Shown piece by piece: positions 14,836 through 31,222 of a DNA stretch of 64,000 bases. Position numbers and translations under genes: made by a program. The first letter of the stretch is position 1. Every line of letters begins with the position of its first letter. The DNA is taken from contig NZ_AP024469.1 of assembly GCF_016865365.1 (NCBI RefSeq), positions 2,200,501-2,264,500 of the forward strand. Direction: 5' to 3'. The stretch comes from Geobacter sp. SVR (GTDB lineage Bacteria > Desulfobacterota > Desulfuromonadia > Geobacterales > Pseudopelobacteraceae). The notes under the pieces are model-generated. The model was not told the origin of the DNA. It was given only the letters and a program-made list of their open reading frames with translations, and searched no databases.

Positions 14836-15723
14836 ATGCCTGTCGGCAATGTGGGTTGGATTTTGTCAGACTTCAAATCGTTCATACAGCTTCTGCGGCC
14901 GCGTCAATGGCTGAAGAACCTGATGCTGTACTTCCCCCCGTTTCTGGGGGGAACTCTGCTACAGCCCGGAACGGCTTTCCGCGGAATACTTCCCTTTGTC
15001 GCGTTCAGCATGGTTTCGAGCGCAACCTACATCGTCAACGATACCTTTGATTATCGCAACGACCGCCATCATCCGGAAAAATGCAAGCGCCCGCTGCCTT
15101 CGGGCCGTGTTTCGATCCCGGCCGCGCTTGTATTGGCGGCATGCCTCGCCTCAGGCGGCATCGGCCTGGCCAGTCTGTCATACTCTCCCGCCTTTCTGAT
15201 CATCCTCTGTCTCTATCTCGGCATTTCAGTGGCGTATTCGTTCCGGCTGAAGGACATTCCGCTGGTCGACATCTTCTGCATCTCTGCCGGTTTTCTGCTG
15301 AGGCTCGAAGCGGGAGGCGCCGTTTTCGGCCTCGCCATCTCGCAATGGCTGTTTCTGAGCGTGTTTCTGCTCTCGATTTTTCTCAGTTCCGGCAAGCGTA
15401 TTGCCGAGAAGCAGAAGTTGGCCGGCGGCGCTGTACTGCATCGCAAGGCGTTGGATGGATATCCTGCTGGACTACTGGATGCGATCATGCAGATGAGCGG
15501 CGGGGCTGTGCTGGTCACGTACACCATGTATGCCATTTCCCGTCATTCCTCTCTTTTGGTGTACACCGTCCCCTTGTGCTGCTTCGGCTTGTTCAGGTAC
15601 TTGCTGCGCATCCGGAGAGGGGAGGGGGGAGACCCGACCGAGTCCCTGACAAAGGATGTCCCCTTGTTTCTCGTGGGTCTGATCTGGGCTATCATGGTGG
15701 GATGGGGGATTTACGGCCGATGA
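14836..15723 (+). CDS. UbiA-family transferase, polyprenyl-phosphate phosphoribosyltransferase (DPPR synthase)-like
   Basis: The 295-residue integral membrane protein has the UbiA-type pattern of many hydrophobic helices and an Asp-rich motif, YIVNDTFDYRNDRHHPEKCK followed by RPLPSG, which is the form seen in decaprenyl-phosphate phosphoribosyltransferases rather than in quinone-pathway enzymes. The N-terminal LRPRQWLKNLMLYFPP is also typical of that subgroup. Such enzymes attach phosphoribose to a polyprenyl phosphate carrier, a donor for arabinofuranose or ribofuranose residues. It opens the polysaccharide cluster and overlaps the next glycosyltransferase by ATGA, which supports a glycan role. 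The exact lipid and sugar are inferred. Confidence 0.82.
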   Translation: MPVGNVGWILSDFKSFIQLLRPRQWLKNLMLYFPPFLGGTLLQPGTAFRGILPFVAFSMVSSATYIVNDTFDYRNDRHHPEKCKRPLPSGRVSIPAALVLAACLASGGIGLASLSYSPAFLIILCLYLGISVAYSFRLKDIPLVDIFCISAGFLLRLEAGGAVFGLAISQWLFLSVFLLSIFLSSGKRIAEKQKLAGGAVLHRKALDGYPAGLLDAIMQMSGGAVLVTYTMYAISRHSSLLVYTVPLCCFGLFRYLLRIRRGEGGDPTESLTKDVPLFLVGLIWAIMVGWGIYGR

Positions 15724-16622
15724 GAGATGCCTTTCTGCGCACGCTGTACCGTCTGTTCCCGTTCGATTTGCGTGGCGACTGCCCGGTGCCTCCATCGCGT
15801 GAGGGAATACGGATTTCCTGCATTATCAATTTTTACGGCCGTCTCGATCTTTTGAACGGCATCCTTCATTCCCTTGCCCAGCAGCAGTATGACAGAGAGC
15901 TCTTTGAAGTCGTGCTGGTCGAGGATCGTAATGGAACCGAAGCCGGACGACACCTTGCGAAAGATTTTAGCTCCTCACTGCAAACGGTCTATCTGCCGCT
16001 GGACAAGAATTTCGGGAACATGGGCTATTCAAGGAACTATGGTCTGCGTCATTCCCGGGGCGAGATAGTTCTTTTTCTCGACGACGACACGGTCCTGCTG
16101 CAGCAAGATTTTCTTGAAGTACTCGATGATGAATTCAGACGTAAACCAAGGGCAGACGCGATAATTCCTCATGGTCACGCCAGCTTTGCCTTGATCGAGG
16201 GGCAGTATGACCATCATGATCCCTACTTCATGACCAGTCGTTGTACTGCGTATCGACGGCAGGTCCTTGCGGAGCTGGGAGGATTTGTGTCGCACTTCGT
16301 GGGTCAGGAGGATGTGGAGTTCGTTGTCAGGTTTCTGCTGGCGGGTAAAATTTCCATCTGTGCAGCTGGCTTGAATTACTTTCATCCCCCCTTGTTGGTC
16401 CCCAATTTTCGCAAGCCCAAAGCTGTAGGCCACTCCTTCTATCGCCTGAAAGCGCGTTATCCGGTCTTGCTGTGGCTGCTGGTCCTGATCAATTGTTCAC
16501 GCCATGCGCCGCTGTATCTCCTGCCTGCCAGGCGCTGCCGGGAGATGGGACGGTTTGGGATCGGGTTTCTGGCGGGGGTGCTTGTTTCGCTTTTCAAAAA
16601 AGAAGGGTTTCACTACAATTAA
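15720..16622 (+). CDS. Glycosyltransferase family 2
   Basis: The 300-residue protein has a GT-A nucleotide-sugar fold. It begins its domain with ISCIINFYGRLDLLNGILHSL, shows the Asp motif FLDDDTVLL near residue 122, and has a later acceptor-side segment HFVGQEDVEFVVRFLLAG. A hydrophobic C-terminal region (LLWLLVLINC and FLAGVLVSLF) suggests membrane association. The ATG at 15720 overlaps the UbiA gene stop; a much longer upstream open frame exists but lies inside the UbiA gene. It is part of the polysaccharide operon, followed 3 bases later by wzm. Confidence 0.85.
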   Translation: MRDAFLRTLYRLFPFDLRGDCPVPPSREGIRISCIINFYGRLDLLNGILHSLAQQQYDRELFEVVLVEDRNGTEAGRHLAKDFSSSLQTVYLPLDKNFGNMGYSRNYGLRHSRGEIVLFLDDDTVLLQQDFLEVLDDEFRRKPRADAIIPHGHASFALIEGQYDHHDPYFMTSRCTAYRRQVLAELGGFVSHFVGQEDVEFVVRFLLAGKISICAAGLNYFHPPLLVPNFRKPKAVGHSFYRLKARYPVLLWLLVLINCSRHAPLYLLPARRCREMGRFGIGFLAGVLVSLFKKEGFHYN

Positions 16623-16625
16623 CGC

Positions 16626-17450
16626 ATGGAACAGATGGAGATTCTGATAAAACCCGACATGGGGGCGCGTAACTACTGGCGGGACATCTGGCGCTACCGC
16701 GAGCTTTTTTTCTTCCTGGCCTGGCGCGACATTCTGGTGCGCTACAAGCAGACCGCCATCGGCATTGCCTGGAGTGTGCTGCGTCCGCTCCTGACCATGC
16801 TGGTCTTCACCATCGTCTTCGGAAAGCTGGCCAAGCTCCCCTCCAACGGCGTGCCATACCCGATCATGGTTTATACGGCCATGCTGCCATGGCAGTTCTT
16901 TGCCAACTCCCTTACCGAGAGCAGCAACTCGCTGATCGACAATGCCAATCTGCTGAGCAAGGTTTACTTTCCCCGCCTGATTGTCCCGGCCGGCTCGGTT
17001 ATCGTCAGTATGGTGGATTTTCTAATCTCCGCGGCCATCCTGAGTGGGCTGATGGCATGGTATCGTTTCATCCCCGATGCGAGGATCCTGTTTTTGCCCG
17101 TATTCTTCATGATGGCATTCATGGCCTCCTTTGGCGCTGGTTTGTGGCTCTCGGCCCTCAACGTCACATACCGTGATTTCCGCTATGTCGTCCCGTTTCT
17201 GGTGCAGTTCGGGCTCTACATCTCGCCGGTCGGCTTCTCCAGCGCCATCGTACCCGAAGAGTGGCGCCTCCTTTATTTCCTCAACCCCATGGTCGGTGTT
17301 ATCGATGGGTTCCGCTGGGCTCTGCTCGGGGATGCCTTTCCGGTGAACTGGCCCGGCCTGGGTCTTTCCTTCCTGCTGGTGATGCTGATCCTAATGGGCG
17401 GCGTATGCTATTTCCGCCGAATGGAACGCAGCTTTGCGGACGTGGTGTAG
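16626..17450 (+). CDS. wzm: Polysaccharide ABC exporter permease Wzm
   Basis: This 274-residue ABC-2 type permease matches Wzm/RfbD-type O-antigen exporters. The conserved opening WRYRELFFFLAWRDILVRYKQTAIGIAWSVLRPLL is followed by six hydrophobic spans and the FRYVVPFLVQFGLYISPVGF segment. It exports undecaprenyl-linked glycan across the inner membrane together with the Wzt ATPase encoded 3 bases downstream. The presence of this pair means the glycan is probably finished in the cytoplasm (ABC-dependent pathway) rather than by Wzx/Wzy. Confidence 0.93.
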   Translation: MEQMEILIKPDMGARNYWRDIWRYRELFFFLAWRDILVRYKQTAIGIAWSVLRPLLTMLVFTIVFGKLAKLPSNGVPYPIMVYTAMLPWQFFANSLTESSNSLIDNANLLSKVYFPRLIVPAGSVIVSMVDFLISAAILSGLMAWYRFIPDARILFLPVFFMMAFMASFGAGLWLSALNVTYRDFRYVVPFLVQFGLYISPVGFSSAIVPEEWRLLYFLNPMVGVIDGFRWALLGDAFPVNWPGLGLSFLLVMLILMGGVCYFRRMERSFADVV

Positions 17451-17453
17451 CGC

Positions 17454-18746
17454 ATGTCCACTGTTATCACCGTAGAAAACCTGGGCAAGAAGTACCTCCT
17501 GAACCACCAGTCCGGCCGGCAGCCCTATGTGGCTCTGCGCGACGTGCTCAGTGATGGCATGAGGAGCTTGAGCCGCAAGCTGCTGGGAAGCGGCGCTGGC
17601 ACCTCACACGGTGCCGGGAGGGAAGAGTTCTGGGCGCTCCGGGACGTCTCCTTCGAGGTCAGGCAAGGAGACCGGATCGGCATCATCGGCAGAAACGGCG
17701 CTGGCAAATCCACGCTGCTGAAGATATTAAGCCGCATCACCGAGCCGACCACCGGCAGCATACGGATAAAGGGGAGGGTGGCTAGCCTGCTGGAGGTAGG
17801 AACCGGATTTCATCCCGAACTGACCGGCAGGGAGAACATCTACCTCAACGGCGCCATCCTGGGGATGAGCCGGGTCGAGATCAGGAAAAAGTTCGATGAG
17901 ATCGTTGCTTTTGCCGAGATAGAGAAATTTCTCGATACGCCGGTGAAGCGCTATTCTTCGGGAATGTACGTGCGGCTGGCATTTGCGGTGGCTGCCCATC
18001 TGGAGCCGGAGATACTGGTAGTGGACGAGGTTCTGGCGGTTGGGGATGCACAGTTCCAGAAGAAGTGCCTGGGGAAGATGGAAGATGTGTCGGCAAGGGA
18101 AGGGCGAACGATCCTCTTCGTCAGCCACAACATGGCGGCAGTCGGCCAACTCTGCGACCGTGGGCTCTGGCTGGAACGCGGCACCATAAAGAGCATGGGG
18201 ACTGTGTCTAAGGTCGTGGACGCGTATCTTTCAGACGGTGACGCCGCTGCCGGTGTTCGCATCTGGAGCGGCAGCGAATCTGCTCCCGGCAACGAGCGGA
18301 TTTCACTTCTCGTGGTCCGGGTGCGCGACCATCTCGATGAGGTTTCGGCCCAACTTGATATGGAACATTCTTTCTCGGTGGAACTGGAATACCAGATCCA
18401 CGCCCCTCATGCCCAACTCCGTACCGGCTTCTGGATCTATACAGCCGAAGGGGTACTGGTCTTCGTAGCCGGCGACAACGAGGATCCGGCCTGGCGGGGA
18501 GTGAAGCGTCCGGGAGGACGCTACCTGAGCCGTTGCCGAATTCCGGCCATGCTGCTTAATTCCGGACGCTATTCTGTGACGGTAGCCGCCGATATCCAGG
18601 GCTCCGAACTTCTCTTCCTGCAGCACAACGTGCTGAGCTTCCAGGTCGAACAGACAGGACCGACCGTCCTTGACGGCGCTCAGCGTTCACCCGGCATTGT
18701 TCGCCCTTCCTTGGCGTGGCGTGTGGAGCGGATGGGCGGAAAGTGA
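17454..18746 (+). CDS. wzt: Polysaccharide ABC exporter ATPase Wzt with C-terminal glycan-binding domain
   Basis: The 430-residue protein has an N-terminal ABC ATPase (Walker A GRNGAGKST near residue 82; signature YSSGMYVRLAFAVA; Walker B EILVVDEVLAVGD; H-loop ILFVSHNM) and a C-terminal beta-sandwich domain from about residue 280, as in Wzt proteins that recognise the non-reducing end of their own O-antigen. Such tailed Wzt proteins usually export chains carrying a terminal modification, for example methylation; a methyltransferase gene lies further along the cluster. It is directly between wzm and the first radical SAM gene. Confidence 0.93.
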   Translation: MSTVITVENLGKKYLLNHQSGRQPYVALRDVLSDGMRSLSRKLLGSGAGTSHGAGREEFWALRDVSFEVRQGDRIGIIGRNGAGKSTLLKILSRITEPTTGSIRIKGRVASLLEVGTGFHPELTGRENIYLNGAILGMSRVEIRKKFDEIVAFAEIEKFLDTPVKRYSSGMYVRLAFAVAAHLEPEILVVDEVLAVGDAQFQKKCLGKMEDVSAREGRTILFVSHNMAAVGQLCDRGLWLERGTIKSMGTVSKVVDAYLSDGDAAAGVRIWSGSESAPGNERISLLVVRVRDHLDEVSAQLDMEHSFSVELEYQIHAPHAQLRTGFWIYTAEGVLVFVAGDNEDPAWRGVKRPGGRYLSRCRIPAMLLNSGRYSVTVAADIQGSELLFLQHNVLSFQVEQTGPTVLDGAQRSPGIVRPSLAWRVERMGGK

Positions 18747-18747
18747 A

Positions 18748-20205
18748 ATGAGCATGCCCAGAATCGTTCTCATCGACGTGGGCGGATGGCAAGGGGGGCT
18801 CGGTCGCGGAGTTCACTACCCCAATATCGGCATCGCCTATCTCGCAGCCGCTCTCCAGAGGGCGGGCTACGGCGTGACGGTGCTCGACCTGAATAACGAA
18901 TATCTAAGCGAAGAGGAGATCCTGACATCCCTGCAGTCGGGCCAAGCGGACTTGGTCGGTCTATCGGTGAAAACCGCCACTATGGGCAGCGCTCGCCGGC
19001 TCGGCGCCCTAATCAAGTCCCGCTACCCCCGGCTACCGCTGGTGGTTGGGGGGCCCCATGCCAGCGTCGCCACGACCGAGATTGCAAAAGAACCGTGGGT
19101 TGACTACCTTCTCGTGGGGGAGGGGGAGCTTGCCTTGGCGGAGCTTGGCTACCGGGTTGCGGGGGGGATGCTGACCGAGGGGGTGACGGGAGTCGTTTTC
19201 TGTCGCACCGACCATCCCTTACCGCCCTCTGTCCCGGCCCGGGTGCCCTGTCTGGATGACCTCGAGTATCCCGACTTCTCGGTTTTCGGCAGCGGCGTGA
19301 TCGAGGCTGTCCGCCAAAGCTACCCCATCATCACCAGCCGCGGCTGCCCTTACCAATGCACCTACTGCAGCGTGCGCAAGATCAGCGGCTCCACCGTCCG
19401 CTACCGCTCTCCCGAGGCGGTAGTGGACGAGCTTGACCGGGCACGGCAGGAGTACGGCATTCGCGGGTTCGAAGTGGTGGACGATTCCTTTAACGTCGAC
19501 ATGACGCGTTCGAAGGATATCTGTCGGCTGTTGATCGAGCGGGGGCTGGTCATGCCCTGGAGCTGTCCAAACGGCATCAGGGCTGACAGGATCGATGCCG
19601 AGCTTGCCACCCTGATGGCGCGCTCCGGTTGTCTGGCTGTCATGATCGGCATTGAGAGCGCTGATCACGATGTGTTGGCGGCCGTAAAAAAAGGGGAATC
19701 AATCGAGGCCATCGAGAAGGGTATCCGCGTTCTCAAGGAGGCGGGGCTTGGGGTGGGGGGCTTCTTCATCATCGGCCTGCCCGGCGATTCCTACCGGGCG
19801 CAGCTGCGTTCGGTCGACTTCGCTCTCAAGCACGGCATCAGCGCCCATTTCAACATGCTGGTCCCCTATCCGGGAACCGAGGTCTACGACTGGGTCGTCT
19901 CCCACGGCCGTTTCCTCGAACCTGGCAGCGGGGGGATGCACTTCAGTGACTCGAAAGTACGGCCGGTTTTCGAAACCGACGGTTTCACTGCCCGGGAACG
20001 GCAGCGTGCCTACGAGATGGCCCATACCCGCCTGCGGCGTTTCGATATGCTGATCCCGCACACGGTCCCTGTCTGGCGTCGCCGGCTGGAGGTGGCACGG
20101 CTCATGCTGCGTTACGACGCCGGCTCGCTCTTGCCTGCGGCCGTCAAGGCCATGGTTCGCGCCGCGATCGGCTCCCGCAACGTCGCTACGCAAAGGGAGG
20201 ATTGA
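18748..20205 (+). CDS. Radical SAM protein with N-terminal B12-binding-like domain (first of a pair)
   Basis: The 485-residue protein has a Rossmann-like N-terminal domain of the cobalamin-binding type (PNIGIAYLAAALQRAGY, then VVGGPHASV) and a radical SAM core with the cluster motif RGCPYQCTYC near residue 200. Downstream, MIGIESADHDVLAAVKKG and MLVPYPGTEVYDW match the BchE/elongator-type branch. The DxHxxG cobalamin-ligand motif was not found, so cobalamin may bind base-off in another way or not at all. The ATG at 18748 lies one base after the wzt stop. Its end overlaps the second radical SAM gene by ATGA. Expected chemistry is a methylation or rearrangement of a glycan or lipid intermediate; this is inference. 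Confidence 0.85.
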   Translation: MSMPRIVLIDVGGWQGGLGRGVHYPNIGIAYLAAALQRAGYGVTVLDLNNEYLSEEEILTSLQSGQADLVGLSVKTATMGSARRLGALIKSRYPRLPLVVGGPHASVATTEIAKEPWVDYLLVGEGELALAELGYRVAGGMLTEGVTGVVFCRTDHPLPPSVPARVPCLDDLEYPDFSVFGSGVIEAVRQSYPIITSRGCPYQCTYCSVRKISGSTVRYRSPEAVVDELDRARQEYGIRGFEVVDDSFNVDMTRSKDICRLLIERGLVMPWSCPNGIRADRIDAELATLMARSGCLAVMIGIESADHDVLAAVKKGESIEAIEKGIRVLKEAGLGVGGFFIIGLPGDSYRAQLRSVDFALKHGISAHFNMLVPYPGTEVYDWVVSHGRFLEPGSGGMHFSDSKVRPVFETDGFTARERQRAYEMAHTRLRRFDMLIPHTVPVWRRRLEVARLMLRYDAGSLLPAAVKAMVRAAIGSRNVATQRED

Positions 20206-21656
20206 TGATCTACTTGGTGAATCCCCCTTGTCCTCCGGGATCGGTCTCCAACAAGGACACCATGGGAGGGCTGGGACAGCTGTATCCGGCGGGCACCCCG
20301 ACCATCATGCCCCCCATCGACCTCCCCTATCTCGCTGCCCTTTTCAGAGAGCACCGCCTCTCCTGCGTCACCCTCGACTGTCTCGGCTCCGGGATGGACG
20401 CGGGCGACCTGCTCCTGGCCTTGAAAAGAAACCGGCCGCGCCTGGTGGCTCTGCGCACTTCCCTGCCGAGCCTGGAGTGGGACTTGAAGCTGGCCGAACT
20501 GATCCGGACGGTTGTTGATACCGAACTGATCATGTTCGGACCCTGCCTGAAGTACCTGGGGGAACTGGCGCTCCGCGACGGTCATGTTGATGCGGTGGTG
20601 CCCGGGGAAGCGGAATTGGTCTTGCCCAAACTGGCCGCTGCACCCCCGGGTTCGCCGGTGGCCGGGGTGGTCCGCCGCGGTTCTGCTGTTGTGGACGACG
20701 GCGGTCGGATCGAAGACCTGGATGCGCTCCCCTTCCCGGCCTGGGATCTGCTCCCGTACCATAATTACCACTGTCTCGGGCTGGTCCGCAACCTTCGGCC
20801 CTTCGTGACCGCGCTCTCCAGCCGGGGCTGTCCGCACGGTTGTGCCTACTGCCCTTATCCGGTCGTGCAGGGGAGGAAGATAAGGCTGAGATCGGCGCAG
20901 AACGTGGTGGAAGAGTTGGTCTGGCTGGATCACGGTCTCGGCGTCCGGGCCGTCCTCTTTCGCGACCCAGAGTTCGCTGTCAGCAGGGACCGCGTGGCGG
21001 CCATTTGCGAGGGAATGCTTCAGCGCTCCCTTACGCTTTCCTGGCGTTGCGAGACAAGGATCGAGAATCTCGACCCGGAACTCCTCTCCCTTATGGCGCG
21101 GGCGGGATGCGTCGGTATCAACCTGGGGGTCGAAAGCGCCAATGAGGAGATCCTGCGCGGGGTTGGCCGCAAATCCTTTCCCTATGAAAAGGCCCGCACC
21201 CTGATCGATTGCTGCCACAGACTCGGGATCGAGACGTTCTGTTTCTTCGTGCTGGGTCTCCCCGGCGAGAGCTGGAGGTCGGCGCTTGCCACCATCGATT
21301 ACGCCCTGGCACTGGCCCCCCGGGCAGTACAGTTCACCGTGGCTACCCCCTATCCCGGAACAGGACTTTGGGAGTGGGCCTCCGGCCACGGTTTCATCGA
21401 GGAGGGCAGTTTCAGTGCTCTGACCGGTTACGAGGCGACTATGAGGACGGAGCACCTGCGGATTGACGAACTGGCCTCGCTTAGGGATTACGCTTACCGG
21501 GCCTGGAGTATGCGAGGGGCTGCTCCCTGGTTCCGGATCGCGGGGTGCGTAAGAAACCTCAGCCACGAACTGAAAGCAGCTGCCTCATTTCTGAGGGAGC
21601 GCCGTGAGGTGAGGGCAAAATCTGTAGCGTGTGGTACGGGAGTTACGAATGGCTAG
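20202..21656 (+). CDS. Radical SAM protein with N-terminal B12-binding-like domain (second of a pair)
   Basis: This 484-residue protein has the same two-domain layout as its upstream neighbour: a cobalamin-type N-terminal domain opening with MMIYLVNPPCPPG and a radical SAM core with RGCPHGCAYCPYP near residue 207, followed by GINLGVESANEEILRGVGR and VATPYPGTGLWEW. The two proteins are clearly related but diverged, so they look like ancient paralogues with different substrates. No DxHxxG motif is seen here either. The start overlaps the previous gene by 4 bases and its end overlaps the SDR gene by 8 bases, so all three should be co-expressed. Confidence 0.85.
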   Translation: MMIYLVNPPCPPGSVSNKDTMGGLGQLYPAGTPTIMPPIDLPYLAALFREHRLSCVTLDCLGSGMDAGDLLLALKRNRPRLVALRTSLPSLEWDLKLAELIRTVVDTELIMFGPCLKYLGELALRDGHVDAVVPGEAELVLPKLAAAPPGSPVAGVVRRGSAVVDDGGRIEDLDALPFPAWDLLPYHNYHCLGLVRNLRPFVTALSSRGCPHGCAYCPYPVVQGRKIRLRSAQNVVEELVWLDHGLGVRAVLFRDPEFAVSRDRVAAICEGMLQRSLTLSWRCETRIENLDPELLSLMARAGCVGINLGVESANEEILRGVGRKSFPYEKARTLIDCCHRLGIETFCFFVLGLPGESWRSALATIDYALALAPRAVQFTVATPYPGTGLWEWASGHGFIEEGSFSALTGYEATMRTEHLRIDELASLRDYAYRAWSMRGAAPWFRIAGCVRNLSHELKAAASFLRERREVRAKSVACGTGVTNG

Positions 21657-22404
21657 CAGCCGGGTGGTCGTCATCACCGGTGCCGGCAGCGGCATTGGGC
21701 GGGCCACCGCGCTGACCTGCGCTGGAGCGGGGACGGTGGTCGCGGTCTGCGGCCGCTCGATGCTCCCCCTCCGGGAGACAGCATCTCTGGTGGAGACTGC
21801 GGGCGGTGCGGCCCGGGCCTATGCCGTTGATGTCAGGGAAACGGAAAGCGTGCGGAAAATGGTCAAGGCGGTGGTCCGCGAATTCGAACGGATAGACGTC
21901 CTGGTCAATAACGCCGGCGTCATAGCCGCCAAGCCTTTTCTGGCCTCGAGCGATCAAGAGTGGAACGAGCAGATTGCTATCAACCTGACCGGCACCTACA
22001 ATTGCTGTCGCGCCGTACTCCCCTCCATGGTGGCCGCTGGGGAGGGAGTGATCGTCAACATCTCTTCCGTCCTCGGCCGGATAGGCATCGCCGGCTATGC
22101 AGGCTACAGCGCTTCCAAATTCGGCGTTATCGGTCTCACTCAGTCCCTCGCCGACGAATACCGCGGGTCGGGTATACGGGTCTATGCGGTATGTCCAGGG
22201 GGAACCGACACCCCGCTTCACCGTAGTGTGGTCGGTGATGAGGAGGCGAAAAACGCCATGGCCCCTTCGCGTGTCGCCGGGGTGATCGTCGACCTCTTTG
22301 ATCCCTCCCCGGCACTTCCTTCAGGGAAAGAGGTGGTGGTGGACGACCGGGCGGTCAGGACGCCTTGGATGAAGCGTTTCCTGGAGAAGGTTTGGCACCG
22401 GTGA
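21649..22404 (+). CDS. Short-chain dehydrogenase/reductase
   Basis: The 251-residue protein is a classical SDR. It has the nucleotide-binding TGAGSGIGRATAL at residues 10-22, the structural NNAGVI, and a catalytic Ser with YSASK (Tyr/Lys). FabG-like members reduce ketones or oxidise alcohols with NAD(P)H. In this cluster a sugar or polyprenyl-linked sugar is a reasonable substrate, and a DprE2-like epimerisation step after the UbiA-type enzyme is conceivable, but the DprE1 partner was not seen. ATG 21649 is preferred to a GTG at 21631 because ACGGGAG precedes it. The stop overlaps a GTG start of the next gene. Confidence 0.88.
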   Translation: MASSRVVVITGAGSGIGRATALTCAGAGTVVAVCGRSMLPLRETASLVETAGGAARAYAVDVRETESVRKMVKAVVREFERIDVLVNNAGVIAAKPFLASSDQEWNEQIAINLTGTYNCCRAVLPSMVAAGEGVIVNISSVLGRIGIAGYAGYSASKFGVIGLTQSLADEYRGSGIRVYAVCPGGTDTPLHRSVVGDEEAKNAMAPSRVAGVIVDLFDPSPALPSGKEVVVDDRAVRTPWMKRFLEKVWHR

Positions 22405-24911
22405 AAGTCCTGGTGGTCTCCAATATCTACCCGCCGTACTTCGTGGGGGGCTACGAACTCGGCTGCTGCAATCTCGTTGAAGCCCTCATCGAGCGGGGGC
22501 ATGAAGTGCGGGTGCTGACCAGCACCTACGGGGTCAACCGCGAACTTGTCCAGCCCCCCATTTACCGTCTCTTGCGGATCGACTTCGACCGGCTTCCCTC
22601 TTTCCCGAAGGTGGTGCGCAAAGAGGCAGCGAACCAGCGCCATTTCCGCCGGCTCTGCGTGGAATTCGTTCCGGATATTGTCTTCTGCTGGAACATGTCC
22701 AACATTTCTTTGTCGATCGCCGCCATTGCCGGCGATCTGAAGATCCCGGTCAGGTACTATCTCTTCGACAACTGGCTGGCCACCTGCGAGTTGGACCAGT
22801 GGTTCCAGTACTGTCGCTTGTTGGCCCCATTGAGACCTCTGCTTAAGGTACTCCTGCCGCGGTTGAGGTTCCTTGTCCCTGAGGCCCCCTGTCCCCTTGA
22901 CGGAGCCATCTTTGCCAGCAGCTACCTGAAGGAGGTTGCGCACCTCATGGGTAAGGAGATAACGGCGGCACCTGTTGTCCATTGGGGTGTTCCAGTGCCC
23001 GCCCTGCCGGAGGTCACTCACTCCTCGCCGGCTTCCATGCTGTACGTCGGGCAGGTGGTGCCCCTCAAAGGTGTTCACACCGTGGTCGAGGCGGTGGGGA
23101 TACTGAAAGAGGAACATGGCGTCTCCTCAATCTCCCTCACCGTGGTGGGCGACACCGGCTTCGACCCGGAATACGTTCGCCATCTGGAGAAACTGGCCGA
23201 GCGCTATGGTATCTCCGACAGGGTGCGCTTCACCGGGAAGGTCGCTCCGCAAGAGGTGGGGGGATATCTGAACTCGCACGGGCTGTTCGTCTTTCCTTCA
23301 GCTTGGGATGAGCCTTTCGGCATCTCACAGGTGGAAGCAATGGCGGCCGGTATGATCGTTCTGGGGACCGCCACAGGCGGCAGCGCCGAGATCATCAAGG
23401 ATGGGGTAAATGGCCTGCACTTCGAGCGGGAGGATTGCCGGGACTGCGCCCGCCAGATCCTGCGCCTGCTCGAAGACCCGGAACTTTGCAGGCGATTGAC
23501 AGCTGGGGGGCGCGCGTCGGTAGCCGGAGACTTCAATTTTAGCCGGGTGGTGAATGACCTGGAGCGCCTGCTCGAAGACAGCCGGCGCACTACCACCGGC
23601 CGCATGGCCGGTTCCGGGAGGAGCACGACCGGTACCGCCCCGGTTACGAAAGCCGAAGCGGGCGACCTGGTGCAGTGTGCCACGATCACCTTTCACAAGG
23701 TTCTTTCCACCCTGATCCTGGCCTGCGTAAGGCTAAGGAGGAAGGGCGCGTCTGAACCGGCGGCGGCAGGCATCACCCTTTTCATCACCCCTGGCGACGC
23801 CAGCGACCTCATCCTGGCTCTTCCCTTCCTGCGTGGCTATGCAGAGAGGTTCCCGGACCGGAAGCTCATTGTAGCGGTCAGACCCGAGGTTGTCCCCCTC
23901 GTGGCCGGTCTTCCCATCATCGACGAGGTAATTCCCTTCCCGGTGACCGCTCCGGCAGGATGGCAGCGGATGACCCGCGGTCACCTCAGTTGGTGGTGCT
24001 ATGGGATGAGACTCCCTGCTCTCCTCTCGGGAAAGGTCGGTACGGCCGTCTCCCTCGGATGGAGAAAAGACGCAGCCGGCGCTGCTGGCGCTACCGTGCT
24101 GGCGGCGTTGAAGGTCGGACGCAAAATCGGCTTCCGGGATGCCGGTGATGGGCTTGGCAGACAAGTTCTCGATTTCTTCGTCGCTGACGGCCCTGTGCGC
24201 CGTTACCCGTGGAGCGGGGTGGCCGCCATGAACGCCCTCTTTGCCTCGCTCGGCGTGACTCTGGACTCCGACTGTCTCACCGCGGTGCCGACCGGCATGG
24301 ACACCCTGCCTGACGAGGTCGCCGAATTCGTCCGGTCCGCTCCCGGTCCCGTCGTCGTCATCGCCCCGGGAGGTGACTCGTTATGCTGCTGGCCGGTTGA
24401 GCGCCATGCCGAAATCGGCCAGTGGCTGCAGACGGAATACGGAGCATCGCTGTTGATTCTGGGCCTCGAGTTCGACCTGAGACGATGTCACGAGTTGCAT
24501 CGGCAGCTTCCTGCCGGCCGGAAATTCCTGCTCGCGGGCCCCATGTCCGCCGATGAACTCTTTGCAGCCTTGTCTGGAGCATCTGTTGTCATCGGTAATG
24601 ACAACTGCTTCTTCTACGCCGCTGCTCTCGCCGGGAGGCCGGCGGTTGGCATCTTCGGCCCGACCTCGAACGATCGCCTCGAACTGGGGGGCGGGAGACA
24701 GCAAATCGTGCGCACATTCCTCCCCTGCAGTCCCTGCGGTTGCGACTGCCTCTATGACAGGCCTCGCTGCCTGGACGGGGTGGACACCGAGAGAGTTAAA
24801 AGGGCCGTGAGAGGCAGGATTTTCGCCGAGCACTACGGCGACACACTCCCTTCCCGCAAAGAAGCGGGATCTGCCGAACCGGGCTACATGCCACCATGCA
24901 CGGAGAATTAA
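22401..24911 (+). CDS. Fused GT4-GT9 glycosyltransferase
   Basis: This 836-residue protein joins two glycosyltransferases. Residues 1-400 are a GT4 (GT-B) enzyme: VVSNIYPPYFVGGYELG at the N terminus, YVGQVVPLKGVHTVVEAV in the middle and FPSAWDEPFGISQVEAMAAG at the donor site. After a linker of about 50 residues, the second half resembles heptosyltransferase-like GT9 enzymes: FITPGDASDLILALPFLRG, VVIAPGGDSLCCWPVERHAE, VIGNDNCFFYAAALAGRPAV and a Cys-rich end (CSPCGCDC). The start is GTG at 22401, overlapping the SDR stop. Fusion suggests two consecutive sugar additions by one chain. No stop or frame break occurs at the junction. Confidence 0.83.
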   Translation: MKVLVVSNIYPPYFVGGYELGCCNLVEALIERGHEVRVLTSTYGVNRELVQPPIYRLLRIDFDRLPSFPKVVRKEAANQRHFRRLCVEFVPDIVFCWNMSNISLSIAAIAGDLKIPVRYYLFDNWLATCELDQWFQYCRLLAPLRPLLKVLLPRLRFLVPEAPCPLDGAIFASSYLKEVAHLMGKEITAAPVVHWGVPVPALPEVTHSSPASMLYVGQVVPLKGVHTVVEAVGILKEEHGVSSISLTVVGDTGFDPEYVRHLEKLAERYGISDRVRFTGKVAPQEVGGYLNSHGLFVFPSAWDEPFGISQVEAMAAGMIVLGTATGGSAEIIKDGVNGLHFEREDCRDCARQILRLLEDPELCRRLTAGGRASVAGDFNFSRVVNDLERLLEDSRRTTTGRMAGSGRSTTGTAPVTKAEAGDLVQCATITFHKVLSTLILACVRLRRKGASEPAAAGITLFITPGDASDLILALPFLRGYAERFPDRKLIVAVRPEVVPLVAGLPIIDEVIPFPVTAPAGWQRMTRGHLSWWCYGMRLPALLSGKVGTAVSLGWRKDAAGAAGATVLAALKVGRKIGFRDAGDGLGRQVLDFFVADGPVRRYPWSGVAAMNALFASLGVTLDSDCLTAVPTGMDTLPDEVAEFVRSAPGPVVVIAPGGDSLCCWPVERHAEIGQWLQTEYGASLLILGLEFDLRRCHELHRQLPAGRKFLLAGPMSADELFAALSGASVVIGNDNCFFYAAALAGRPAVGIFGPTSNDRLELGGGRQQIVRTFLPCSPCGCDCLYDRPRCLDGVDTERVKRAVRGRIFAEHYGDTLPSRKEAGSAEPGYMPPCTEN

Positions 24912-25964
24912 ATGGGAATTTTCACCACCGTTTCAAGGCTGCTTCGAGAACTGAATCGGATGAGATCCTCTGACGGCCGTCCCGACATGAGGCAGCTGTT
25001 CCTTCACATGAGGGACATTGAGGTCATGAAGCTGAACATGAAGAACCTCGGCTACCAGTTGGGCCGTACCATGCAGCCGTACCTGGACAACATCCCCTGC
25101 GCCGACCAGCCGGCACGGTGGAACTTGGTCAGCAAGGCCTGCACCCAGGGCGATGTCGAAAGCCCCTGGTTCCGTTACTGGTGCAAGGAACTGAAGATCA
25201 CCCCTTTCTACCACCGGAAACTGTGGGAATTCGCTTTCCTGCTTCAATCCCTGTATGACCAGGACTTCCTGGTACCGGGAAAGAGCGGCATCGGGTTCGG
25301 CTGCGGCGAAGAGCCTTTAGCCTCCTATTTTGCCTCCAAGGGGGTTGATGTCCTGGTTACTGATCTGGAACTCGAGAGAGTCCGGGGAGCGGGATGGGTG
25401 GAGACCGGCCAGCATGCCAGCAGTCTTGAGAGCAGCTATCATGCGGATCTCTGCAGCCGGGAACTCTTCGACCGGCATGTCCGCCACGCCTACGTTGATA
25501 TGAATGCAATTCCCGCCGATTACCACGGGTGCTTCGATTTCTGCTGGTCGGTCTGCGCCATGGAGCACCTCGGCTCCATTTGCCAGGGGCTGGACTTCGT
25601 CGATAATTCCTTGAAGGTATTGAAGCCGGGCGGCGTCGCCATCCATACCACCGAGTACAACTACCTTTCCAGCGAGAGTACCGTCGACAATATGCCGACC
25701 GTCCTGTTCCTGAGGAGACATTTCGAGGAATTGGCACAACGGCTGAACTGCGCCGGGCATCTGTGCTTCGGCCCCTCCTTTGAGATTGGCAATGGTGTTC
25801 TCGACCGGTTCATCGATCTCCCCCCTTATGCGTTGGGTGAAGGACTGATCAGGAAGGAACAATGGTCGGAGGTGAACCAGCTCGCCCATCTCAAGCTTGC
25901 CATCGAGGGGTATGCCTGTACCTGCTTCGGCATCCTTGTCAGGAAAGGGAACCACGCCGGATGA
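24912..25964 (+). CDS. SAM-dependent methyltransferase-like protein
   Basis: The 350-residue protein has a class I methyltransferase core in its middle: a modified motif I (GIGFGCGEEPLASYFASKG), an acidic end of strand 2 (VLVTDLELE) and a motif IV/post-I region (FDFCWSVCAMEHLG). About 120 residues precede the core and contain helical segments. It starts immediately after the stop of the fusion gene (TAAATG) and overlaps the next gene by ATGA. With a tailed Wzt exporter in the same operon, terminal methylation of the glycan is a plausible role. The substrate cannot be read from sequence. Confidence 0.75.
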   Translation: MGIFTTVSRLLRELNRMRSSDGRPDMRQLFLHMRDIEVMKLNMKNLGYQLGRTMQPYLDNIPCADQPARWNLVSKACTQGDVESPWFRYWCKELKITPFYHRKLWEFAFLLQSLYDQDFLVPGKSGIGFGCGEEPLASYFASKGVDVLVTDLELERVRGAGWVETGQHASSLESSYHADLCSRELFDRHVRHAYVDMNAIPADYHGCFDFCWSVCAMEHLGSICQGLDFVDNSLKVLKPGGVAIHTTEYNYLSSESTVDNMPTVLFLRRHFEELAQRLNCAGHLCFGPSFEIGNGVLDRFIDLPPYALGEGLIRKEQWSEVNQLAHLKLAIEGYACTCFGILVRKGNHAG

Positions 25965-27301
25965 TCGACCGCGGCGTTCGATATTATGTCGACTGCACCG
26001 AGACGGTATGCTGTGGACTCAACACCGGTATCCAGCGCACTGTGCGCAACATCATCGCCCGACAGTCCCTGATCCGCGAACGCACCGGTTTGGAAGTGGT
26101 ACCGGTGGTTTCCTTCGAAGGAACGTTTTATCGATATCACGCCGACCGTGACCGCAGGATCTTTGCGCCGCTGGTGAGCAGGATTCTGGGCGCGGGACGG
26201 GATTTCATCGACCGGCTTTTTTTCCGAGAGAAGGTCAACATCGATGGCGTGGCGCCGTTGCCGTCCGCAGGTCCGCAGCACCATCTCGCCCGGGAGCAGG
26301 CGCACCGCCGAATCATCGAGTCGTTCCGAAAGGTGATGCCAGTTCTTTTCCACTGTGCCTTCTGGCTTGACAACGGCATCGACTTCCATGGAAAGGCGGA
26401 GATTGCGGGTAAAGATGTGATCTTCTACCCCGATGCTTTCTGGTATCGATCTACCCATCTCACCTTCTCCCGCTACCGTGCACTCAAGATATTGCTGCTG
26501 CACGACATCATTCCCTTGGCGGCCCCTACCGATTGTGATCCACTTTACTCTTTCTCGTTCCGGAGAAACCTCGCAGGGATCGTGCGCGAGCTTGACGGAA
26601 TCGTCACCATTTCCCGCTCCGAATTGGTCCACATCGAGCGCTACCTGGACACGATGGATTGCCGGCGCCCCTTGCTCATGTACAACTACTGGGGGGCCGA
26701 TTTCCTGTCCGCCGGGACGGAACAGGTCGTGAGGGAGGAGTTCCGGCATGCTTTCGCAGCAGCGTCTGTCTTCGTCATGGTCGGAAGTATTGAGCTCCGG
26801 AAGAACCACAAGATGGTCCTCGATGCCTTTGATGAATTCTGGCGGCAGGGGGGCGACGCCTCGCTGTGCGTCATCGGGAAAGCAACCTCCCACTGCCGAG
26901 ACGTCAAACAGCGCATCGATCGTCATGAGCTCCTCGACAGCAAATTATTCCGTTTCGAGAACGTCACCGATGCTGAACTCGCTTACGGGTACCAGAACTG
27001 CGCCGCCTTGATCTTTGCCTCGCGGGCGGAGGGGTTTGGGCTGCCCCTGGTCGAGGCGATGTGGTACGGCCGGCCGGTCATCGCCAGCGATATCCCCGTC
27101 TTCCGCGAGATCGGTGGGGATTATCCCCGCTATTTCGGCCTGGAGGATGTCCAGGAACTGGTCCGGCAACTCCACGAAACTATTCGGAGTGAGGAGCCCC
27201 CGAAGCCGAAGAAATGGCTGACCTGGGATCAGTCGGTGCTTAACCTCTTCGAGAAAATCGCCTCTATGGCGGAACAAGCGGCAGCCGGAAGGACGACGTG
27301 A
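25961..27301 (+). CDS. Glycosyltransferase family 4
   Basis: This 446-residue protein has the GT-B donor half of family 4 with SVFVMVGSIELRKNHKMVL near residue 265 and FASRAEGFGLPLVEAMWYG near residue 350. The N-terminal acceptor half contains YYVDCTETVCCGLNTGIQRTVRN, a glycine-rich loop form seen in many O-antigen mannosyl- and rhamnosyltransferases. ATG 25961 overlaps the previous stop by ATGA; an upstream open frame lies inside the methyltransferase gene. Sugar specificity is not deducible. Confidence 0.86.
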   Translation: MIDRGVRYYVDCTETVCCGLNTGIQRTVRNIIARQSLIRERTGLEVVPVVSFEGTFYRYHADRDRRIFAPLVSRILGAGRDFIDRLFFREKVNIDGVAPLPSAGPQHHLAREQAHRRIIESFRKVMPVLFHCAFWLDNGIDFHGKAEIAGKDVIFYPDAFWYRSTHLTFSRYRALKILLLHDIIPLAAPTDCDPLYSFSFRRNLAGIVRELDGIVTISRSELVHIERYLDTMDCRRPLLMYNYWGADFLSAGTEQVVREEFRHAFAAASVFVMVGSIELRKNHKMVLDAFDEFWRQGGDASLCVIGKATSHCRDVKQRIDRHELLDSKLFRFENVTDAELAYGYQNCAALIFASRAEGFGLPLVEAMWYGRPVIASDIPVFREIGGDYPRYFGLEDVQELVRQLHETIRSEEPPKPKKWLTWDQSVLNLFEKIASMAEQAAAGRTT

Positions 27302-28440
27302 AGATACTGATAAACGCCACCTGCATCGCGACAGCGCGCGCCACAGGCATTGAGCGTTTCGCCCTGCACATCGCGCGTGAGCTCTGCCAGATCGATCCGT
27401 CGGTGACGGTGGTGGCTTCGGAGCCGCTGACGGGAATCCCGGATGTGGTGATCCCGAAGGAGTTGGCAGTTTCCCGCTCGCTGCTCGGACGTAGGGAATT
27501 CCTTTTCCGCGCGGCGTGGGACCAGACCGTCTTTCGTTCCACGGTCGCCCGCCACAACCCCGACTTGATCTTCTTTCCGATCCAGGACGGCATGCTGGCC
27601 CCGCCGGCAAAGCAGGTGGTGACCGTCCATGACTTGCATTACCTCCACTTCCGGCAGATGGGCGATTGCAGCAATGAAATCGGGGAACTCAGGAGACGAG
27701 TATTTAGCAGCAAGATGCCGAAGATTTTTGAAGCTTCGGCAGCCATCGTTGCGGTGTCCCAGTCAACCGGCACCGATCTGGTCCAGCATTTCGGCCTGCG
27801 GCCGGATCAGGTTACGGTGGTCCACAACGGCTACGACGAGGAGAGGTTCCGGGTTATCCACGAGGTACAGGCGGTATTAAGCCGGCTCGGCCTGCAGGAC
27901 AAGGCGTACCTGCTCTTCGTGGGGAGCATCCTCAGGCACAAAAATATTGAAAGAGTGGTCGAAGCCGTGGCCAAAGCCAATACCGGACTCGCCCTGGTGG
28001 TCGTCGGTGCCAACAAGGACGATGCTTACCTGCGGGCGGTCCAGGCGCGGGCGAGGGAGTGCGGGTTGGACGACAGCATCTTCCGGTATCTCGAATATGT
28101 GTCGGACCAGGACCTCCCCGTGCTGTACCGTGGAGCGCTCTCCTTCGTCCTTCCGTCGCTCCACGAGGGATTCGGGGTTCCGATACTGGAGGCTATGGCC
28201 TGCGGCACACCGGTTGTTACCTCCAATTGCTCGGCCATGCCCGAGGTCGCAGGGGATGCGGCCGTCTACTGTGATCCCCTCTCCGTCGACAGTATTGCCG
28301 ATGCTGTTCGTGCCGTGGTATGGAACCAGGAGCTCCGGAACGCCCTTACTACACGCGGCTTTGAGCGAGCCTACATGTTCCGGTGGCGTCGGTCCGCACA
28401 GAGGCTGTACCGGTTATTTGAGGAGGTTGTCCACTCGTGA
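27298..28440 (+). CDS. Glycosyltransferase family 4
   Basis: The 380-residue protein is a family 4 enzyme. It opens with INATCIATARATGIERFALH, a loop resembling that of the preceding gene, then shows VVTVHDLHYLHF, VAVSQSTGTDLVQHFG, LLFVGSILRHKNIERVVEA and the donor-binding LHEGFGVPILEAMACGTPVV. It resembles WbpY/mannosyltransferase-type enzymes. The start is GTG 27298 overlapping the previous stop, and its own stop overlaps a GTG start of the next gene. Tandem, similar GT4 genes often add successive residues of one repeat unit. Confidence 0.88.
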   Translation: MKILINATCIATARATGIERFALHIARELCQIDPSVTVVASEPLTGIPDVVIPKELAVSRSLLGRREFLFRAAWDQTVFRSTVARHNPDLIFFPIQDGMLAPPAKQVVTVHDLHYLHFRQMGDCSNEIGELRRRVFSSKMPKIFEASAAIVAVSQSTGTDLVQHFGLRPDQVTVVHNGYDEERFRVIHEVQAVLSRLGLQDKAYLLFVGSILRHKNIERVVEAVAKANTGLALVVVGANKDDAYLRAVQARARECGLDDSIFRYLEYVSDQDLPVLYRGALSFVLPSLHEGFGVPILEAMACGTPVVTSNCSAMPEVAGDAAVYCDPLSVDSIADAVRAVVWNQELRNALTTRGFERAYMFRWRRSAQRLYRLFEEVVHS

Positions 28441-29789
28441 AGATTATCGTTCTAGGCGCCGGCCCCTGCGGCCTGGGCGCCGCCTATCATCTCGATAAAC
28501 TCGGCCATAACAGCTGGCAGCTCTTTGAGCGCAACTCGAACGTTGGTGGCCTATCTGCCTCGTTCATCGACGATAAAGATTTTACCTGGGACATCGGCGG
28601 CCACGTCCTTTTTTCCCACTACACCTATTTCGACAAGGCCGTTGCCGAGGCTTTGGGAGACGCATATTACGAACACCAGCGGGAGAGTTGGATTCGCATC
28701 CTGCAGACCTGGGTGCCGTATCCGTTCCAGAACAATGTCCGCCATCTCCCGACCGAGGCCTTGCAGGAATGCGTTGAAGGGCTGCGTAAGCTGCAGGGAG
28801 ATCCATCACAAACAACCAACTTCCGAGAATGGATGGACACGATCTTCGGCAGCGGCATTGTCAAGTTCTTCATGGAGCCTTACAACCGCAAGGTGTGGGG
28901 CGTGGTGCTGGAGACAATGTCGAAGGAGTGGATCGCCGAGCGAGTGAGTGTCGTGGATCTGGGCCGCATCGAGCGTAATATTACCGAGCAGCGTGACGAC
29001 CTGAGTTGGGGGCCGAACAATACCTTCAAATTTCCGAAACAGGGGGGGACCGGCGCCATCTATGAGGGAATTGCCAGGCCGCTCGGGGACAGGATCCATC
29101 TGAACCACGAGATGGTGTCGATCGATCCGGATGCCAAGCGGGTCAGCTTTGCCAATGGACGTGTGGAACCGTACGATGTACTGATCAACACGCCGCCCCT
29201 GGATTTGCTCGTCGCAGCATGCTGTGCACTTCCTGAAACGGTACGGGCTGCTGCGGAAAACCTCGTACACAACAGCGGCCTGATCGTGGGATTGGGGATT
29301 GAAGAGCGGCGGGATGACAGCAAGTGCTGGATGTACTTTCCTGAAAGTAACTCCCCCTTTTATCGGGTAACGAACTTCCATAATTACTCCCCTTTCAATG
29401 TGCCCGGAGGCGATACGAGGCGCTATTCCTCTCTGATGTGCGAAACCACCTATTCCTCTTATAAATCGGTGGATAAGGCAGACATTGTTGATAGAACGGT
29501 TCAAGGATTGCACGCCAGCGGCATGATCGATGGGCCGCAGATACAGCGGATCGTCAGCCGCTACCTGATCGATATCCCGTACTCCTACCCGGTGCCGACC
29601 CTGGGACGTGACGGTGCGCTCTCCATGATCCAGCCCTGGCTCGAATCAAGGGATATCTATTCCCGTGGACGCTTCGGAGCCTGGAAGTACGAAGTGGGCA
29701 ACATGGACCATTCCTTTATGCAGGGAGTGGAGGTTGTTGAGCGTCTGTTTGCCGGCGGCAACGAGCCGACCCTGAACGGCCGGGTGTGA
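28437..29789 (+). CDS. FAD-dependent UDP-galactopyranose mutase-like protein
   Basis: This 450-residue flavoprotein begins with the dinucleotide fold IVLGAGPCGLGAAYHLDKLG and the second ligand strand LFERNSNVGG. Further on, WDIGGHVLFSHYTYFDKAV, WVPYPFQNN, MEPYNRKVWG and FPKQGGTGAIYEGIARPL follow the order of segments in UDP-galactopyranose mutases and their relatives. True mutases interconvert pyranose and furanose UDP-sugars. The similarity is to the superfamily; identity as a genuine mutase is not certain, and an amine-oxidase-like role is the alternative. GTG start 28437 overlaps the previous stop; the next ATG overlaps its own stop by one base. Confidence 0.75.
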   Translation: MKIIVLGAGPCGLGAAYHLDKLGHNSWQLFERNSNVGGLSASFIDDKDFTWDIGGHVLFSHYTYFDKAVAEALGDAYYEHQRESWIRILQTWVPYPFQNNVRHLPTEALQECVEGLRKLQGDPSQTTNFREWMDTIFGSGIVKFFMEPYNRKVWGVVLETMSKEWIAERVSVVDLGRIERNITEQRDDLSWGPNNTFKFPKQGGTGAIYEGIARPLGDRIHLNHEMVSIDPDAKRVSFANGRVEPYDVLINTPPLDLLVAACCALPETVRAAAENLVHNSGLIVGLGIEERRDDSKCWMYFPESNSPFYRVTNFHNYSPFNVPGGDTRRYSSLMCETTYSSYKSVDKADIVDRTVQGLHASGMIDGPQIQRIVSRYLIDIPYSYPVPTLGRDGALSMIQPWLESRDIYSRGRFGAWKYEVGNMDHSFMQGVEVVERLFAGGNEPTLNGRV

Positions 29790-30934
29790 TGACAAGCCGG
29801 ATTGCACTGCTCAAGGCTGTTGATGCGCTCCTTGGGCGCCTAGCAGTGCCGCTGGCGACCCTCTGTTCCCCCAGAGCACAACGATCAGAAGCGATCGGTT
29901 CCATCCTCCTCATTCGCCCCGGCGGCATAGGCGATGCCGTACTTCTGATCCCTGCGATTCAAGCGATCAGAAAGAAATTTCCCTCAGCTGACATCACGGT
30001 ATTGGCCGAGCGCCGCAACGCCGCTGCTTTCCAGCTCTGCTCCGAGGTAAACAGGGTCCTCCTTTATGATCGTATTTCCGACTTTCTTGCCGTACTCCGC
30101 ACCACCTATGACGTGGTCATCGACACTGAGCAGTTGCATCGTCTCTCGGCAGTGGTGGCCCGCCTGACCCGGGCACCGGTCTCGATCGGCTACGGCACCA
30201 ACCAGCGGTCCCGTCTGTTCACCCATTCCATTCCGTATTCCCACGACACGTACGAAATCGATAGTTTTCTGGGAATGCTGGAGCCGTTGGGGATCGGACT
30301 GCATGGGGTTCCGGAACGCTTCCTGGCTGTGCCGGACAATGCCCTCCGGACGGCGGCTTCATTGCTGGAGTCTCTGGCCGGCCGGCCGTTCGCGGCTCTT
30401 TTTCCCGGCGCCAGCATTCCGGAACGCAGATGGGGGGCGGACAGGTTCCGGCAGGTAGCGGAGAGGCTGGCCGCCTTCGGGATTCCGGCGGTGGTGGTCG
30501 GGGGAAGGGAGGATCGGGAGCAGGGGGAGGAGATTACTGCCGGTGGGATGGGACTGGACCTGGCGGGGCGGACCTCGTTGTCCGAAACCGCGGCGGTGCT
30601 TCAGGAGAGCACTTTGCTGGTGAGTGGTGATTCGGGAATATTGCACCTGGCGGTGGGGCTGGGAAAGCCGACCGTGTCACTGTTCGGGCCGGGCAGAGGG
30701 AAAAAATGGGCTCCCAGGGGCCATCATATCGTGATCAACAAAGAGCTTCCCTGCTCTCCCTGTACCACCTTCGGCACCACCCCACCGTGCTGGAACAGCG
30801 TTCAGTGCATGCGCGATATTGCGGTGGACGAGGTGTTCAACGCGGTGATGATGCTGCTGGCCGCGGAAAGTGCGCTCCCTTCAGCGTGCTGCAAAAAAGA
30901 GTGGATCGTGGTTCAGAACAACATCAAGCGCTGA
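29789..30934 (+). CDS. Glycosyltransferase family 9 (heptosyltransferase-like)
   Basis: The 381-residue protein has GT9 marks: ILLIRPGGIGDAVLLIPAIQ near residue 33, ALFPGASIPERRWGADRFRQ near residue 195, VSGDSGILHLAVGLGKPTVSLFG near residue 275, and a Cys-containing end (CSPCTTF). Such enzymes usually add heptose or related sugars to lipopolysaccharide core from ADP-sugars. ATG 29789 is used (TGATG with the previous stop) rather than a GTG three bases upstream. It is the last gene of the packed cluster, and its 3' end overlaps an opposite-strand small gene by 11 bases. Confidence 0.88.
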   Translation: MTSRIALLKAVDALLGRLAVPLATLCSPRAQRSEAIGSILLIRPGGIGDAVLLIPAIQAIRKKFPSADITVLAERRNAAAFQLCSEVNRVLLYDRISDFLAVLRTTYDVVIDTEQLHRLSAVVARLTRAPVSIGYGTNQRSRLFTHSIPYSHDTYEIDSFLGMLEPLGIGLHGVPERFLAVPDNALRTAASLLESLAGRPFAALFPGASIPERRWGADRFRQVAERLAAFGIPAVVVGGREDREQGEEITAGGMGLDLAGRTSLSETAAVLQESTLLVSGDSGILHLAVGLGKPTVSLFGPGRGKKWAPRGHHIVINKELPCSPCTTFGTTPPCWNSVQCMRDIAVDEVFNAVMMLLAAESALPSACCKKEWIVVQNNIKR

Positions 30935-31109: not shown

Positions 31110-31222
31110 GGCTGTTTCTCCTTTCGTTTTGTCGGCATGGCCGGTAAAATTATTCCACCCTAGCAGAAAATGTGGTAGAAAGAAACGTTTGCCATCCCTC
31201 ACACAAGGATACGACGCGATTT

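Follow-up and report, generated by a model that had tools for sequence, protein, structure and literature searches.

We examined a 64,000-nucleotide window of the Geobacter sp. SVR genome (NZ_AP024469.1, positions 2,200,501 to 2,264,500, forward strand; "the window" below means this whole stretch), in which an O-antigen locus with an ATP-binding cassette (ABC) exporter carries two adjacent radical S-adenosylmethionine (SAM) genes, here called rSAM1 and rSAM2. The first-pass annotation had placed the pair at 18748-21656, between wzt and a gene for a short-chain dehydrogenase/reductase (SDR), and these coordinates proved exact, as did the ABC-dependent context of wzm, wzt (Wzt_C 47.9 bits, cut-off 30.4) and SDR. 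The rSAM1 gene begins one base after the end of wzt, and the SDR gene, starting at 21649, shares 8 bases with the end of rSAM2; the overlap between the two radical SAM genes, given earlier as ATGA, is in fact a single base (TGATG). Both products match the Pfam Radical_SAM family (81.9 bits for rSAM1 and 75.3 bits for rSAM2, cut-off 29.5). The cobalamin-type N-terminal domain that had been ascribed to both is clear in rSAM1 (B12-binding 80.5 bits, cut-off 32.1) and sub-threshold in rSAM2 (30.0 bits). The two proteins are related, as had been proposed, with 32% identity over 368 aligned residues, yet they fall into separate clades of the tree, and these two results together reject a recent tandem duplication. 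Neither reaches the BchE family (TIGR02026, cut-off 481.35 bits; 138.7 for rSAM1 and 115.2 for rSAM2). Since the host genome, one contig of 4.7 Mb, matches rSAM2 at 25 places at E 1e-3, its own gene included, the radical SAM family as such is unsurprising here. Overall, the locus is best read as containing a real glycan-modifying cassette, conserved as a unit, around a relative of the diol dehydratase AprD4.

Orthologues of rSAM2 were found in seven loci (genomes are denoted by G and loci by L): the window, G484 (L010), G483 (L009), G156 (L018), G765 (L035), G698 (L037) and G645 (L039). The order wzm-wzt-rSAM1-rSAM2 occurs again in L009, from an Omnitrophota metagenome-assembled genome (MAG), and in L010, from a Geobacter MAG, where the SDR follows as well; the counterparts of rSAM1 and rSAM2 in these two loci share 45-51% identity with those of the window. 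This recurrence argues that the arrangement is not due to chance. In each of the seven, the surrounding genes serve glycan export or encode glycosyltransferases, in agreement with the glycan role suggested by the first-pass annotation; in the loci examined, homologues did not lie mainly beside unrelated genes, nor did the two genes turn out to have a known non-glycan role. The association with Wzm/Wzt is seen in four of the seven, the other three having a Wzx-type flippase.

The pair makes up just a portion of the unit, and what recurs is a larger set: the AprD4-like protein, an SDR-type oxidoreductase and a second radical SAM protein, with the edge of the cassette inside wzt. An SDR-type gene adjoins rSAM2 in five of the six loci that could be read (the window, L010, L018, L035 and L037, not L039), the L009 contig being too short to read this position. 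Next to rSAM2, or with one gene between, 6/7 loci have a second radical SAM gene, and it is of the rSAM1 lineage in only the four Wzm/Wzt loci. Treating rSAM1 as one orthologous family across all loci was accordingly rejected, because the tree assigns the second radical SAM of G765 and G698 to another lineage. A sister AprD4-like group, in G606 (L040) and G882 (L048), has a triad of its own with an epimerase-type SDR (by Pfam for G882) and a second radical SAM that likewise differs in lineage from rSAM1.

The distribution of rSAM2 is sparse. In the host phylum, 2 of 395 genomes score above 500 bits, and four weaker matches (280-296 bits; G119, G126, G162 and G165) lack the motifs described below; the first three of these fall outside the rSAM2 group in the tree, which did not include G165. 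In the phylum of G483, 4 of 285 genomes score above 470 bits, with one sister at 309, and the class of G765 (384 genomes) returned the same four carriers and three sisters. Within the host order, matches at 1e-105 occur in 2/141 genomes, namely Geobacter sp. SVR and G937, seemingly the same MAG as G484. None of 96 relatives had rSAM2 at E 1e-60, in a search with a single query sequence, this strict threshold and at most 16 candidates scored per genome. A seven-row profile search of the 141 genomes gave the same picture, although the profiles were built from the carriers, which thus score high by construction. An archaeal candidate (L011) was without the motifs and fell outside the rSAM2 group.

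Structural comparison places rSAM2 closest to AprD4. Its AlphaFold model (mean predicted local distance difference test score, pLDDT, 86.5) finds AprD4 (PDB 6fd2) as the best solved match by Foldseek, with E 3.7e-34 and template modelling (TM) scores of 0.82/0.87, the runner-up being at 8.1e-22; by VIA, the same pair gives Z 42.0 with a root-mean-square deviation of 2.7 over 443 aligned residues, against Z 30.7 for the runner-up. At the sequence level, phmmer aligns rSAM2 with AprD4 at E 2.9e-46 across residues 4-427, and the identity between the two proteins is 28-30%. The catalytic half of rSAM2 carries three motifs, CPYP (from the third cluster cysteine), FRDPEF and WRCETR, and the corresponding patterns CPY[PL], [FI]RD[PA]xF and WxCETR occur jointly in 7/7 rSAM2 orthologues and in AprD4 (as FRDPVF and WWCETR for the last two), where IRDAEF (L018) and CPYL (L039) are taken as variants. 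As a set they are found in none of 27 other radical SAM proteins. The first two are present in all three sister proteins and in 0/27 of the others; WxCETR alone appears in one of the 27 (L098, as WFCETR). In a tree that omitted four radical SAM proteins of the fetched loci (L021_3241, L022_1, L022_3629 and the fragment L048_6349), rSAM2, AprD4 and the sisters form one group with support 94/99. By its nearest fold and the common motifs, rSAM2 is a member of a wider AprD4-like group and a candidate diol dehydratase.

The position of rSAM1 is less specific. It forms its own clade with its counterparts in L009, L010 and L018 (support 99/96), and the nearest folds of its model (pLDDT 85.9) are closely spaced: TsrM, AprD4, MgmA and TokK. 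Since these matches lie close together with AprD4 among them, they give no pointer to methylation in particular.

The surroundings of the pair are listed in Table 1. The fixed frame of the locus consists of UbiA, GT2 (glycosyltransferase family 2), wzm and wzt on the left and of the oxidoreductase, GT9, RmlB and RmlD on the right, and 3' of RmlD follow a mannose-6-phosphate isomerase-type cupin and a GDP-mannose pyrophosphorylase-like protein. The GT2 of the window has 72% identity with the copy in G484 and is found again in several relatives. A GT4-type gene also lies downstream of the module in G156, G765 and G698 (by Pfam for G156 and G765). The methyltransferase-like protein had no NCBIfam match at E 0.001.

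Table 1. Genes and domains of the O-antigen locus, in window coordinates
Feature	Position	Strand	Remarks
UbiA-family polyprenyl-phosphate phosphoribosyltransferase (PPPRS-like)	14836..15723	+	Fixed frame, not cassette-specific; NCBIfam NF008978 229.2 bits (cut-off 207); PDB 8j8j E 6.4e-36
GT2 glycosyltransferase	15765..16622	+	Fixed frame; Pfam Glycos_transf_2 1e-16; start codon uncertain
Wzm, ABC exporter membrane subunit	16626..17450	+	Fixed frame; Pfam ABC2_membrane 6e-18; up to 91% identity with relatives
Wzt ATPase part (about residues 1-255)	17454..18218	+	Fixed frame; ABC_tran 8e-23
Wzt C-terminal glycan-reading domain (about residues 271-430)	18264..18746	+	Wzt_C 1.7e-12; behaves like the start of the variable cassette
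rSAM1, radical SAM protein with B12-binding domain	18748..20205	+	485 aa; ATG 18748, TGA 20203-20205
rSAM2, AprD4-like radical SAM protein, candidate sugar 1,2-diol dehydratase	20205..21656	+	483 aa; ATG 20205, TAG 21654-21656
Classical SDR, candidate ketone reductase after rSAM2	21649..22404	+	Pfam adh_short 1.5e-62; S140, Y153, K157 present in alignment
Fused GT4-GT9 glycosyltransferase	22401..24911	+	836 aa; variable slot; Pfam Glycos_transf_1 2.7e-37, Glyco_transf_9 3.5e-11
Methyltransferase-like protein	24912..25964	+	Variable slot; Methyltransf_23 24.8 bits (below cut-off 27); Methyltransf_11 at cut-off 21.2
Two GT4 glycosyltransferases	25955..28440	+	Right end of variable slot; Pfam Glycos_transf_1
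Flavin adenine dinucleotide (FAD) oxidoreductase, GT9, RmlB, RmlD	28437..33129	+	Right side of fixed frame

We compared this layout with 20 loci fetched from the 67 relatives that have UbiA. The whole frame is present in four of them (L083, L085, L087 and L096), where the genes between its two sides differ, and most of the other relative loci retain parts of it. The radical SAM genes of the window form the left end of this variable slot. The point at which conservation ends was located by comparing Wzt with 13 of the 20 loci, those with a Wzt longer than 380 aa (in L097 and L100 Wzt is short and without the domain, and L088, L090, L091, L095 and L101 have no such Wzt, L090 being just 3.5 kb). 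Against the 13 non-carriers, residues 30-255 show 42-83% identity. In 40-residue bins against five non-carriers, identity is 60-100% up to residue 240 and 10-38% beyond it, whereas beyond residue 240 it is 32-72% against L010 and 23-55% against L009, the bin 241-280 being low in all. For the C-terminal domain as a whole, L010 has 59% and L009 42% identity (58% and 41% when the domains are realigned alone), compared with 14-27% in the 13 non-carriers; the two thus rank at the top of 15 (1/105), a ranking that excludes the carrier G156. L009 comes from another phylum, and its Wzt ATPase part (68%) is less similar to that of the window than in 10 of the 13 non-carriers. The cassette edge lies inside wzt, and the Wzt C-terminal domain is common to three of the four Wzm/Wzt carriers, the window included.

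The slot after wzt was also considered as a dedicated terminator slot, which was not borne out by the 13 genes scanned out of 15 that adjoin wzt: these comprise six glycosyltransferases, two NeuB, one methyltransferase, one HAD, one radical SAM and two without a Pfam match. The NeuB-family genes (nonulosonic acid synthase type) stand first after wzt in two relatives (L086:6397-7449 and L093:7728-8786). The radical SAM protein with WFCETR is encoded at L098:5877-7181 in G062, of the same order, and has a B12-binding domain; lying directly 3' of wzt, it appears to have arrived in the slot independently.

Gene order, protein families, the fold and motif kinship of rSAM2 with AprD4, the repeated occurrence of the module among glycan genes and a Wzt C-terminal domain common to three of the four Wzm/Wzt carriers lead us to propose that rSAM1, rSAM2 and the SDR would form a cassette of the serotype type, by which one sugar in the ABC-exported O-polysaccharide is altered. 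In rSAM2, a 5'-deoxyadenosyl radical would abstract a ring hydrogen beside a vicinal hydroxyl, and the loss of water would give a deoxy-keto sugar. The adjacent SDR would then reduce the ketone to the deoxy sugar, as AprD3 does for AprD4, and rSAM1, of the B12-binding type, may carry out another radical modification of that residue, perhaps a C-methylation. Before export, the cognate Wzt C-terminal domain would recognise a feature formed wholly or partly by the changed residue; the data fit a cassette that makes or shapes what Wzt reads, which falls short of proof. According to the published accounts, AprD4 dehydrates paromamine, a glycoside, and AprD3 is its NADPH-dependent reductase partner in apramycin synthesis (PMC5461906, PMC7941887). 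Action on a glycoside and not on a nucleotide sugar would fit action on the polymer or its end. For radical deoxygenation with ketone reduction by such a cassette, the residue possibly being an export mark, we would put the chances at about even.

Several results weigh against this proposal. The score of rSAM2 against the NCBIfam AprD4 equivalog NF033070 is 181.2 bits, far below its cut-off of 500, and the profile of HpnJ scores about the same (179 vs 181 bits); over the seven orthologues, the best E-value for HpnJ (3.8e-64) is even better than that for AprD4 (4.4e-62). In the tree, AprD4 sits on a long branch, and the branching inside the group does not fix its position. The SDRs are a very broad family, in which this one is a candidate counterpart of AprD3; the SDR-type genes of G156 and of the sister locus in G882 belong to another class by Pfam. 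Three rSAM2 carriers use a Wzx-type flippase, and to our knowledge no exporter-read cap is expected for Wzx-dependent glycans. In G156, which has the module in a different gene order and with the other oxidoreductase class, the Wzt C-terminal domain is 20% identical and ranks among the non-carriers. The sharing of this domain elsewhere could also be mere linkage of neighbouring DNA, which would give the same pattern. Finally, the methyltransferase-like gene of the variable slot, a position that the L009 and L010 contigs do not reach, could be an alternative capping enzyme.

Deoxygenation may also be a chain-ending and an export mark at once, if rSAM2 and the SDR remove the hydroxyl of the outermost sugar at which the chain grows and the Wzt C-terminal domain reads the resulting end; removal of the growth-point hydroxyl would then also end the chain. 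The locus resembles those of the ABC-exported O antigens O3, O4, O5, O7 and O12 of Klebsiella in having Wzm, Wzt with a C-terminal reading domain and variable genes right after wzt. As described in PMC11231755, the carbohydrate-binding domain of the Klebsiella exporter reads the terminal moieties of finished chains, and the caps named there include methyl, methylphosphate and 3-deoxy-D-manno-oct-2-ulosonic acid (Kdo). A radical-made cap, in contrast, was not found in the literature searched. If the chain-ending role were true, the part played in the known systems by methyl, methylphosphate or Kdo caps would fall to the radical enzymes, but we regard this role as unlikely.

It is comparably improbable, in our estimate, that rSAM2 carries out another radical sugar reaction, such as a dehydrogenation, an epimerisation or the ring contraction proposed for HpnJ, a hopanoid-associated radical SAM protein, with the SDR restoring the alcohol. 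The nearly equal profile scores of HpnJ and AprD4 speak for it. So does DesII, in which, according to PMC11434129, slight differences in radical geometry and electrostatics choose between elimination and dehydrogenation. As for HpnJ itself, both radical SAM proteins are far under its cut-off (TIGR03471, 577.6 bits; 179.3 for rSAM2 and 129.7 for rSAM1), and a scan of 17 locus genes gave no best Pfam match of hopanoid type. Against this reading, the AprD4-type FRDPxF is found where several of the remaining radical SAM proteins in these genomes have DDxF-type residues, and the solved structures among the matches listed, which include no HpnJ entry, clearly favour AprD4.

The first-pass annotation had favoured C-methylation, that is, a B12-dependent reaction by one or both radical SAM proteins that would add a methyl branch to a sugar. 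The B12-binding domain of rSAM1 and the presence of the B12 methyltransferases TsrM, MgmA and TokK among its nearest folds are consistent with this possibility, although AprD4 stands in the same tight set of matches, which does not single methylation out. For rSAM2 the claim found no support, as its nearest solved relative is a diol dehydratase well clear of the methyltransferases and its B12 domain is sub-threshold. We therefore consider this reaction, too, a doubtful candidate.

The suggested link to an unusual lipid carrier has also weakened. Of the 96 relatives, 67 have a UbiA match (E 1e-30), and the gene stands first in several of the O-antigen loci examined. UbiA was at first attractive as a cassette partner, owing to its presence in G156 and the lack of a DprE1-type domain, and was dropped on finding it so common where no rSAM2 was found at E 1e-60; it is thus not specially linked to the cassette. 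The three-component pentofuranose system (PPPRS, MATE flippase and GT-C; PMC11127046) shares with the locus the PPPRS-like UbiA, whereas no MATE or GT-C family was found among the 17 locus genes to which that scan was limited, and UbiA is widespread without the cassette. That the cassette acts on polyprenyl-phosphate-ribose from UbiA, in place of the DprE1/DprE2 epimerase, appears highly unlikely: UbiA is the first gene of the locus in the window and in G156, in G484 it sits with GT2 on a separate contig, and no ALO-domain (DprE1-type) match was found in any of the four genomes searched, the host included, but no UbiA match was found in the carriers G483, G765 and G698 (MAGs, possibly incomplete), it lies on a different contig in the carrier G645, and the many relatives with UbiA have no rSAM2 at E 1e-60. 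The two G484 contigs, carrying UbiA-GT2 (L028) and wzm-wzt (L010), both end in what seems to be one gene (L028:2-739 and L010:3-740), which appears to be AlbA/RecG-like, of a DNA-binding regulator or helicase type. A further UbiA-like stretch, shorter than the first, is at L028:4441-4857.

Among known systems, AprD4/AprD3 remains the closest to the deoxygenating cassette that we propose, with the nearest fold and sequence among solved structures, common motifs, an adjoining oxidoreductase gene and sugar chemistry. It differs in the low identity, below the equivalog cut-off, in lying in an antibiotic cluster and not in an export locus, and in the absence of the extra radical SAM gene. A 2017 review names AprD4 as the sole dehydratase of the radical SAM superfamily known as of then (PMC5461906). 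A radical SAM enzyme for the modification of O antigen or lipopolysaccharide was not found in the literature searched, with subscription papers mostly outside its reach. The kind of enzyme is thus already known, and what is new would be its predicted variant inside a surface-polysaccharide locus. With AprD4 relatives encoded in the polysaccharide loci of both Geobacter and Omnitrophota, the chemistry of an antibiotic pathway would move to the cell surface, and the cassette would offer a source of deoxygenated glycans. Since the Wzt reading domain is common among carriers, it raises the testable question of whether the exporter reads the radical-made residue.

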